From contig CAIUOO010000013.1 of the NCBI GenBank assembly GCA_903900795.1, positions 1-45,959 of the forward strand: a stretch of DNA of 45,959 nt, read 5' to 3'. The notes under the pieces were generated by a model. That model searched no databases. It saw nothing but the letters and a program-made list of their open reading frames with translations, and was not told the DNA's origin. This document shows, one piece after another, positions 1 through 20,221 of this stretch. This stretch comes from an uncultured Gemmatimonadota bacterium. GTDB lineage: Bacteria > Gemmatimonadota > Gemmatimonadetes > Gemmatimonadales > Gemmatimonadaceae. A program made the translations under genes and the position numbers. How positions within the stretch are numbered: the stretch's first letter is position 1; each line of letters opens with the position of its first letter.

Positions 1-892
1 GCGTCGCGGATTCCACCTCGTCGCCTTCGAAGATACGCTGGCACTTGAGGACGGAGCGTCGCCGCGCACCATCGAAGCATACCGTCGCGATGTCATTCGC
101 TGTGCCGCGTTCATGCGGGAGCAGGGGATCACCACGGCCACGGCGATCACGCCCGGCGCCCTGCGTGAGTTCGTCTATCACCTGAAGGATCTCGGGCTCG
201 CGGGGACGTCGATCCGTCGGAACATCTCGGCGCTGCGCACGTGGTTCCGCATCATGCTGGCCGAAGGGCTCGTGACCCACGATCCTACCGAGCGACTCGA
301 CTCGCCGGCGCAATTCCGCACGCTGCCCGAGGTGCTCAGCGTCGAGGATGTGTTGAAGCTGCTCGCGGCTCCCGGTCTCGACGAACGTCTGGCATTTCGC
401 GACCGGGCGATGCTCGAGGTGGCGTACGGCGCCGGATTGCGCGTTTCCGAGTGGATCGGGCTTGCGCTCAAGGACGTGTTGCTCGAAGAGGGCTTGGTGC
501 GCGTGCTTGGCAAAGGCAACAAGGAACGATTGGTTCCCATCGGCCGCACCGCGATCGGCGCGCTCGCGGTGTACGTGCGCGAACTGCGCCCCGTGCTCGA
601 GCGGGGGGAAGGGAAGGGTATCCTGTTCCTGAATGGGCAGGGAAAGCCGCTCACGCGCATGGGCGCCTGGAAAATGCTGCGGAAGTACGTCACGATGGCC
701 GGCATCGAGAAGCCCGTGTCGCCGCATACGCTGCGACACTCGTTCGCCACCCATCTATTGGAGGGAGGCGCCGACCTCCGCGCGGTGCAGGAGATGCTCG
801 GCCACGCCGATATCGCCACGACACAGATCTACACGCACGTGGATCGCGAGTATCTTCGAAGCGTGCACCGCCAGTTCCACCCGCGTCCCTGA
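1..892 (+). CDS. xerD: Tyrosine recombinase, XerD-type (5' end outside window)
   Basis: Site-specific recombinase that, with a XerC partner, resolves chromosome dimers at dif. The frame is open from base 2, and the bases before the first ATG (113) encode a typical SAM-like core-binding start (FEDTLALEDGASPRTIEAYRRD), so the gene begins before the window. About 296 residues are visible. The catalytic domain shows the first Arg in GAGLRVSE, the HTLRH box (His and Arg), the LGHADIATTQIY box (His) and the nucleophile Tyr. The C-terminal LRSVHRQFHPRP resembles the E. coli XerD tail more than XerC, hence the name. The gene itself contains three GGGNAGGG octamers. A dif-like site lies about 19 kb downstream. 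The family is certain; XerD versus XerC is less so. Confidence 0.9.
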   Translation, partial: RRGFHLVAFEDTLALEDGASPRTIEAYRRDVIRCAAFMREQGITTATAITPGALREFVYHLKDLGLAGTSIRRNISALRTWFRIMLAEGLVTHDPTERLDSPAQFRTLPEVLSVEDVLKLLAAPGLDERLAFRDRAMLEVAYGAGLRVSEWIGLALKDVLLEEGLVRVLGKGNKERLVPIGRTAIGALAVYVRELRPVLERGEGKGILFLNGQGKPLTRMGAWKMLRKYVTMAGIEKPVSPHTLRHSFATHLLEGGADLRAVQEMLGHADIATTQIYTHVDREYLRSVHRQFHPRP

Positions 893-18287: not shown

Positions 18288-19049
18288 GTGACCAGAATGC
18301 CGACTCCGCCTCGTGGTTCGCTCGCACTCGGTGAGCGAGCCCTTGTGATCGTCCCGACCTACAACGAGAGCGAAAACGTCACCCGCATCGTCCCGCAGAT
18401 CCTCGCTCAGGATTCGCGGCTCGATGTCCTGGTGGTCGACGACAATTCCCCCGACGGCACCGGACGGCTCGCCGACGGGCTGGCGGCCGCCGATCCGCGT
18501 GTCCATGTACTTCATCGCGCGGGCAAGGAAGGCCTCGGCCGGGCATATCTGGCGGGGTTCAAGTGGGCGCTCGAGCGCGACTACGCCTTCATCTTCGAGA
18601 TGGACGCCGACTTCTCGCACGATCCCGGTCACTTGCCTGAGTTCCTGGCCGCGATCCGCGGCGCCGATATGGTGCTCGGTTCTCGGTACCGCGACGGCAA
18701 GGTGACGGTGGTGAATTGGCCGATGACGCGACTGATGCTGTCGTACGGCGCCAATATCTATGCGCGTTCGGTCACGGGACTTCGACTGGGCGATGCCACC
18801 GGCGGCTACAAGTGCTTCCGCCGAGAAGTCTTGCTGGCGATCCCGCTGGATCAGGTTCGGTCGAACGGATACGCCTTTCAGATCGAGATGAGCTTCCGGG
18901 CATGGAAGCGCGGATTCCGCATCGCGGAGATTCCGATCGTGTTTCACGATCGCACAGAAGGCGAGTCGAAAATGTCCAATCGGATCGTACGAGAAGCGAT
19001 CGGGATGGTATGGCGGCTTCGATGGTGGGCGATCACGGGGAAGGCCTAA
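18288..19049 (+). CDS. Polyprenol-monophosphate mannose/glucose synthase (DPM1-like GT2)
   Basis: Soluble GT2 of 253 residues resembling dolichol/polyprenol-phosphate mannose synthase. It has ALVIVPTYNESENVTRIV, VVDDNSPDGTGRLAD, the catalytic metal motif FEMDADFSHDP, DMVLGSRYRDG and GGYKCFRREVL. There are no transmembrane helices, as in the catalytic-only subtype of this family. It probably makes a polyprenyl-phosphate sugar used by a GT-C enzyme, and the YfhO-like protein just upstream is an obvious candidate. It starts with GTG 10 bp after that gene, and its TAA overlaps the dapF ATG (TAATG). Confidence 0.87.
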   Translation: MTRMPTPPRGSLALGERALVIVPTYNESENVTRIVPQILAQDSRLDVLVVDDNSPDGTGRLADGLAAADPRVHVLHRAGKEGLGRAYLAGFKWALERDYAFIFEMDADFSHDPGHLPEFLAAIRGADMVLGSRYRDGKVTVVNWPMTRLMLSYGANIYARSVTGLRLGDATGGYKCFRREVLLAIPLDQVRSNGYAFQIEMSFRAWKRGFRIAEIPIVFHDRTEGESKMSNRIVREAIGMVWRLRWWAITGKA

Positions 19050-19897
19050 TGTCGGCACGCTCGGCGCTCCACGGGATCCCGTTTACCAAGATGACGGGAT
19101 CCGGCAATGACTTCGTGTTTTTCGACGGCCGTCATGTGTCGCTGGAGCGCGTGAAATCACCTGAGATCATCAGGTCTATCTGCAATAGAAACAATGGCAT
19201 AGGTGCTGACGGGATCGTTCTTCTCGAGCCGGCGCCGCCCACGGCGGACGTGCGAATCCACTACTTCAACAGCGACGGCACGCCGGCCGATCTGTGCGGG
19301 AACGCCACGCTCTGCTCGACGGCCATGTCCGCGATGCTTGGCCTGGCCACGGATTCCGGGATGACGCTGATAACGCCGGCCGGGCTCATCGCCAGTCGGG
19401 TCACGGCCGGCCTCCCCGAGATCGACCTACAGCCGGTCACGGCGATTCGGGACGACATGCCGCTCGATATGGTGCCCGGGGAGCAGCGCATCGGCTTCGC
19501 CTTGGCTGGCATTCCGCACGTGGTGATCCTCTGTACGGACGCCGATTCGGTTGATGTTGAAGGTCGTGGGCCGCTACTGCGGCGGCATGCCGCCTCCGGG
19601 CCTGCCGGCGCGAATGTCAACTGGGTGTCACCGATACCAGGCGGCCACTGGCGGTACCGCACCTTCGAACGCGGCGTGGAAGGCGAGACCTTGGCGTGTG
19701 GAACCGGAGCCGTTGCAACGGCGGTACTCCTGACCAGCTGGGGGCTCGCCGCGACGCCGACCGTCACGATCCGGACGAGCTCCGGGCGATACCTCGACGT
19801 GCGTTTATCGGCGACCACAGCGCCGGCATCTGGCTACCAGCCCACGCTGCGCGGCGAGGGTCGCGTAGTATTCCGTGGTGTGATCGAGTCGATCTGA
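19049..19897 (+). CDS. dapF: Diaminopimelate epimerase, with a divergent first Cys motif
   Basis: Interconverts LL- and meso-diaminopimelate for lysine and peptidoglycan. The 282-residue protein begins FTKMTGSGNDFVFFDGR and has two active-site cysteine regions: FNSDGTPADLCGNATLC, and GETLACGTGAVATAVL. In most DapF proteins the first reads CGNGxRC; here the second Gly and the Arg are replaced by Ala and Leu, although the catalytic Cys and GN are kept. RxCNRNNGIGADG and the RTFERGVEGET block are normal. The start at 19049 overlaps the upstream stop. It is the last + strand gene before the terminus gap. The call is a probable functional DapF, with a small chance of a related isomerase. Confidence 0.85.
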   Translation: MSARSALHGIPFTKMTGSGNDFVFFDGRHVSLERVKSPEIIRSICNRNNGIGADGIVLLEPAPPTADVRIHYFNSDGTPADLCGNATLCSTAMSAMLGLATDSGMTLITPAGLIASRVTAGLPEIDLQPVTAIRDDMPLDMVPGEQRIGFALAGIPHVVILCTDADSVDVEGRGPLLRRHAASGPAGANVNWVSPIPGGHWRYRTFERGVEGETLACGTGAVATAVLLTSWGLAATPTVTIRTSSGRYLDVRLSATTAPASGYQPTLRGEGRVVFRGVIESI

Positions 19898-19956: not shown

Positions 19957-20106
19957 AAGGTGGACAGCCTTACGTTTCGTGAGATCCGGACACTGGATTG
20001 GAAGACAGACGAGAGCTAATACGTTCCATGCCAATGTGTTAGAGTGTTTACCAAGACCACACGCACGCTCTCTCTAAATGTTTTCCCACAGTTATCCACC
20101 AGACAA

Positions 20107-20134
20107 AGTTTACATAACATGTATTATGCGCACT
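20107..20134 (-). other. dif: dif-like chromosome dimer-resolution site
   Basis: On the - strand the site reads as an XerC-type arm AGTGCGCATAA (20134-20124), a central hexamer TACATG, and an XerD-type arm TTATGTAAACT (20117-20107). The XerC arm differs from E. coli dif (GGTGCGCATAA) at one base. The XerD arm is identical to that of B. subtilis dif. The 11-6-11 spacing is exact, and 22 of 28 bases match E. coli dif. It lies in the only long gene-free gap, at the point where gene direction converges. Function is inferred from this match; recombination itself cannot be seen. Confidence 0.9.
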
Positions 20135-20221
20135 CTAAACGGCCACGATTTCCTACAGAATGCTGCTATTCGGATCGGTTGCCGTTGCATTACTGTCGAC
20201 TTCCCCCTCCGCACGCGACTC

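Follow-up and report, generated by a model that had tools for sequence, protein, structure and literature searches.

A chromosomal dif site of a Gemmatimonas-like bacterium and the conserved DnaA-box-like element beside it

The window, meaning the whole stretch of 45,959 nucleotides that was analyzed, carries a 28-bp dif site in the convergent gap between dapF (ORF end 19897, + strand) and a gene for a TPR-repeat protein (stop 20309, - strand). A xerD gene is located at the left edge, and a short conserved element lies beside dif. The features of the locus are as follows.

2..892, + strand: xerD, truncated at the 5' end by the contig boundary (TIGR02225, 350.4 bits, cut-off 329.6)
18716..19897, + strand: dapF, diaminopimelate epimerase (TIGR00652, 160.9 bits; homology from about ORF residue 122)
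20040..20140, no strand: replication terminus, where GC skew and gene orientation both change from + to - (cumulative maximum at 20046)
20081-20100, - strand: companion element GGTGGATAACTGTGGGAAAA, a pair of DnaA-box-like units with 10-bp spacing, located at about 7-26 bp from dif on its XerD side
20082..20090, - strand: accessory unit 2, TGTGGGAAA, the best-conserved part of the companion element
20092..20100, - strand: accessory unit 1, GGTGGATAA, 8/9 of the DnaA box TGTGGATAA, position-locked in relatives
20107..20134, - strand: dif, 28 bp, exact sequence, single genome copy, kept in relatives
20107-20117, - strand: XerD arm of dif, TTATGTAAACT
20118-20123, - strand: centre of dif, TACATG
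20124-20134, - strand: XerC arm of dif, AGTGCGCATAA
20309..21034, - strand: TPR-repeat protein gene (PF09976), on the XerC-arm side

The full 28-mer, AGTGCGCATAATACATGTTATGTAAACT on the - strand, has the 11-6-11 layout, and its arms and centre at 20107-20134 read exactly as a preliminary description of this DNA had given them. The identity of 22/28 with E. coli dif claimed there was borne out against a reference sequence that is matched 28/28 in 4751 complete E. coli genomes out of 5426; by part, the identity is 10/11 in the XerC arm, 3/6 in the centre and 9/11 in the XerD arm. The preliminary description also matched the XerD arm to that of B. subtilis dif, at 11/11 positions. Shuffles of the window yielded zero matches at 3 or fewer mismatches, and at the same threshold the bacterium's own genome (3.97 Mb in 580 contigs, 94% complete) holds a single copy, without equal or better rivals.

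The position of the site agrees with that of the replication terminus, which the window had been said to span. GC skew in the window is positive up to about 20 kb and negative beyond it, with the cumulative maximum 60 bp away from dif; the corresponding distances are 69 and 129 bp in 400 kb stretches centred on dif from two complete relatives. On the scale of whole chromosomes, widely spaced samples from the complete chromosomes G022 and G048 also display a flip of the skew sign at dif. Long ORFs are arranged accordingly, with 14 of 16 on the + strand to the left of dif and 21 of 23 on the - strand to the right. Because the skew peak coincides with this switch in gene orientation, it marks the terminus and is not an independent measure of fork fusion. 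GC skew is partly a coding effect, and it is therefore supporting evidence, short of proof, for fork fusion at dif.

The recombination machinery is encoded in the same genome. The gene at the left edge, 19 kb from dif, had been called XerD-type, and its score above the TIGR02225 cut-off agrees with this. XerC is encoded on another contig; its score of 334.9 for TIGR02224 is 0.25 bit under the cut-off of 335.15, yet it is the best match. FtsK with a gamma domain is found on a third contig (4.5e-25). The E. coli KOPS motif, GGGNAGGG, points toward dif 97 times and away from it 33 times in 846 kb, a bias that is partly due to the general G skew.

Comparison with relatives indicates that the site is widely distributed. 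Of the 148 family genomes, 76, covering 27 of 35 genera, contain the dif core (core pattern, at most 2 mismatches), nearly always as one match per genome and rarely as two, at contig ends. With a looser pattern, dif was found in 56 of the 70 genomes that represent ten further families of the phylum, and a reversed-pattern control returned zero matches in both the family search and the wider-phylum search. The arms are kept among relatives, and the six centre bases vary. Many high-quality genomes of genus g23 and of some f5 genera are without a dif match by the patterns used, and dif in these groups may have diverged or become reduced. In several assemblies, a contig break coincides with dif (L254/L255 in G107, L256/L257 in G121 and L258/L259 in G171, as well as the contig ends L006 and L008). 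In three such assemblies, two contigs each terminate on dif, with an overlap of about 120-180 bp, and the flanks of the G121 pair differ. These breaks could be strain variants or elements integrated at dif.

The neighbouring genes are also conserved. The TPR gene is kept beside dif throughout the genus and in much of the family, and the closest relatives of its protein are in Gemmatimonadetes/Gemmatimonas assemblies. dapF is the convergent neighbour on the XerD-arm side in all 62 family sites where it was detected. Its distance from dif ranges from about 30 to 590 bp, except for two outliers of more than 2 kb. It adjoins dif across three families of the order; in E. coli, dapF adjoins xerC instead. 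This synteny bears on the possibility that the 28-mer is the integration scar or attachment site of an Xer-using mobile element and not a resident dif. Such elements are common elsewhere, and three viral contigs from IMG/VR (L303, L304 and L305) carry 22-mers matching the core of dif and could thus be mobile elements of this type. However, the 28-mer is present in single copy at the skew switch, and the dapF/TPR synteny kept in distant relatives largely refutes a mobile origin, which is extremely improbable. The 28-mer is almost certainly the chromosomal dif of a Gemmatimonas-like bacterium, with predicted recombination activity. Its proposed role as the dimer-resolution site is supported by the single copy, the skew switch, the presence of XerC and FtsK-gamma, the KOPS-like orientation and the conservation in the phylum.

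By analogy with known systems, XerC would bind the left arm of dif and XerD the right arm. An odd number of crossovers would leave the sister chromosomes fused as a dimer; FtsK, steered by dif-pointing GGGNAGGG, would pump DNA up to XerCD, and its gamma domain would activate XerD, so that the dimer is resolved. The site shares 28 bp, the 11-6-11 layout, the skew switch, the single copy and XerC/XerD/FtsK with the chromosomal dif of E. coli and B. subtilis (Kono et al. 2011, PMC3025954). The same study predicted dif in the sole Gemmatimonadetes genome then available, and a strand-biased, off-centre terminus region of Gemmatimonadota with a strand switch at ter was described by Tomasch et al. 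2024 (PMC11237797). With both the prediction of dif in the phylum (2011) and the strand switch at ter (2024) already on record, the finding of dif is in itself ordinary.

The companion element beside dif was overlooked in the preliminary description. Unit 1 begins 6 bases past the XerD arm and reads outward from dif, and unit 2 begins 16 bases past the arm, 10 bp from unit 1. The companion 19-mer is unique in its own genome even at 3 mismatches. All genus members examined with an intact flank have dif, then about 7 variable bases, then GTGGATAA(C/G)TGTGGGAAA; in other genera the sequence is degenerate and the position is fixed. Of the 70 family sites, 60 (20 of 27 genera) have TGTGGNNA starting at +15/16 counted from the XerD arm, whereas 1000 shuffles gave 0.04 on average and 2 at most; in 0 of the 70 was it found at the mirrored left position. 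At many sites the unit also occurs 10 bp closer to dif. Near matches to the element number 99 over 15.1 kb, whereas 19.6 kb of control flank contained 2. Information content is about 0.05 bit in the columns before and after the element and reaches 1.7 bits at its central G. As the flanks are variable while the element is conserved, common ancestry alone is insufficient to account for the match. Most genus members have a further, weaker stretch of conservation, similar to G(T/C)AAGnnnTTGC, about 80 bp from dif on the XerD side.

The constant presence of dapF on that side could suggest that the element belongs to the end of this gene, as a terminator or 3' UTR. However, the distance to dapF varies while the offset from dif to the element is fixed, and the element is therefore assigned to dif. 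Moreover, f5 has the box on the opposite side, and f4 and f6 carry the element, yet dapF was not found within about 1 kb. An origin in the dapF end is thus very improbable.

The element is not confined to one family. Families f2, f3, f4 and f6 carry it with the offset unchanged. It is absent beside dif in most of f5 and in f8-f11, which indicates that it is dispensable for Xer recombination as such. Some f5 genera carry a mirrored copy, TTTTCCACA or TTCTCCACA, reading outward from the XerC arm at 9-11 bp, and other f5 genera carry none. The companion element was also absent from the viral contigs and from the flank of E. coli dif, so the tandem DnaA-box-like element on the XerD side distinguishes the present site from that of E. 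coli. The element most probably binds a protein. DnaA, a Xer accessory protein and a fork-arrest protein can be considered as its binder, and we infer that DnaA and a fork-arrest factor are the leading candidates.

Should the element consist of two DnaA boxes, binding of DnaA next to dif would connect the initiator with the terminus, with possible roles in DnaA titration, fork slowing or signalling that replication is complete. The match to TTWTNCACA is 8/9 in unit 1, weaker in unit 2 and perfect in some relatives. Unit 1 has the core GTGGATAA of the DnaA box (TTATCCACA / TTWTCCACA), and the perfect 9-mer TTATCCACA is found in several relatives (L026 and L034 of f1; G158, G160 and G305 of f2; G294 of f6), along with TTTTCCACA in f5. 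The perfect box is very rare elsewhere, with 2 in 846 kb. In nearly all family loci examined, TTWTCCACA is present upstream of dnaA, as expected of an autoregulatory box, and mostly lies inside a promoter-like TTGACTTWTCCACA. However, the commonest forms at dif are TTTCCCACA and TTCTCCACA, which differ from the DnaA box and from the TTWTCCACA of the dnaA promoter. A comparable box cluster around dnaA was not found either, and the open-access papers searched yielded no precedent for DnaA at dif. A DnaA-binding element is accordingly quite possible, though short of probable.

The surroundings of dnaA were also searched for an origin. No oriC cluster with the motif of the element was detected within 20 kb on either side of dnaA in G022 and G048, nor in the dnaA regions sampled for G098 and G000. 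Likewise, no canonical DnaA-box cluster was found around dnaA in L268/L097 (G022), L269/L117 (G048), L271 (G098) and L270 (G000). This suggests that oriC of the genus may use unusual boxes or lie elsewhere.

The geometry of the element is also consistent with a site for an accessory protein that shapes the XerCD-FtsK complex from the XerD side. Plasmid Xer sites such as ColE1 cer and pSC101 psi consist of a recombination core and an adjoining conserved protein-binding sequence, and the ArgR/PepA sites of cer and psi would be the model. A core with adjacent conserved sequence is common to those sites and the present one, where protein binding is predicted; by contrast, the present site is chromosomal, and its element is about 20 bp long, DnaA-box-like and on the XerD (FtsK-contact) side. 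The offsets of 6/7 and 15/16 bp from the XerD arm are fixed, the period is 10 bp, the strand orientation is single, and the mirrored copy in some f5 members lies 9-11 bp from the XerC arm. Nevertheless, the element is missing in f5 relatives whose dif is otherwise good, and the textbook dif requires only 28 bp plus FtsK. An arm-binding extension of XerC or XerD was excluded: both proteins lack one and have ordinary lengths, apart from the contig cut in XerD and a short N-terminus in XerC. An accessory site for the Xer complex is as possible as a DnaA-binding element, though likewise short of probable. Identity of the element with KOPS was excluded as well, because GTGGANAAC, with a count of 24:11 over 846 kb, is infrequent as a polar motif and is oriented away from dif.

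A third candidate is a new kind of polar fork barrier, similar to Tus-Ter or RTP-Ter, that would make the forks meet at dif. In three complete relatives, dif is off the midpoint, at 42-45% of the chromosome from dnaA (1.93 of 4.64 Mb in G022, 2.12 of 4.72 Mb in G048 and 2.27 of 5.18 Mb in G098), and the skew nonetheless switches at dif. The combination of an off-centre dif and a skew switch at dif is a prediction of such a barrier, short of proof, and gene orientation can shape skew too. The fork of the shorter arm would reach the element right after copying dif. An off-centre terminus with the same gene-strand and GC-skew switch was reported in PMC11237797, which mentions dif in passing and does not map it, whereas here dif is within about 130 bp of the switch point. 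On the other side, no barrier protein came to light, and there is one site, whereas the traps of E. coli and B. subtilis comprise several. A fork barrier therefore seems rather unlikely.

Taken together, dif would in most of the phylum belong to a composite terminus module, consisting of dif and a tandem DnaA-box-like element of about 20 bp on the XerD side. The units of the element are one helical turn apart and in fixed helical phase to dif, and a protein would likely be bound beside the recombination complex. That protein may act on dif or on fork fusion there, which is suggested with less confidence than the recombination steps. It is proposed only tentatively that a DnaA-family or new terminator protein occupies the tandem element and either concentrates fork fusion at dif or serves to license XerCD; dimer resolution would then be physically tied to the initiator or to the termination machinery. 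No description of DnaA boxes at dif or of a composite dif architecture was found in the open-access papers searched, and the composite of dif and companion element appears to be the undescribed part.

For a phylum that has received little study, these findings locate the terminus to within roughly a hundred bases. They also provide a new target, an element at a fixed position next to dif that is kept across several families and lacks a counterpart at E. coli dif. If the element binds DnaA or a fork-arrest protein, the debate on whether replication ends at dif would become testable in Gemmatimonas.
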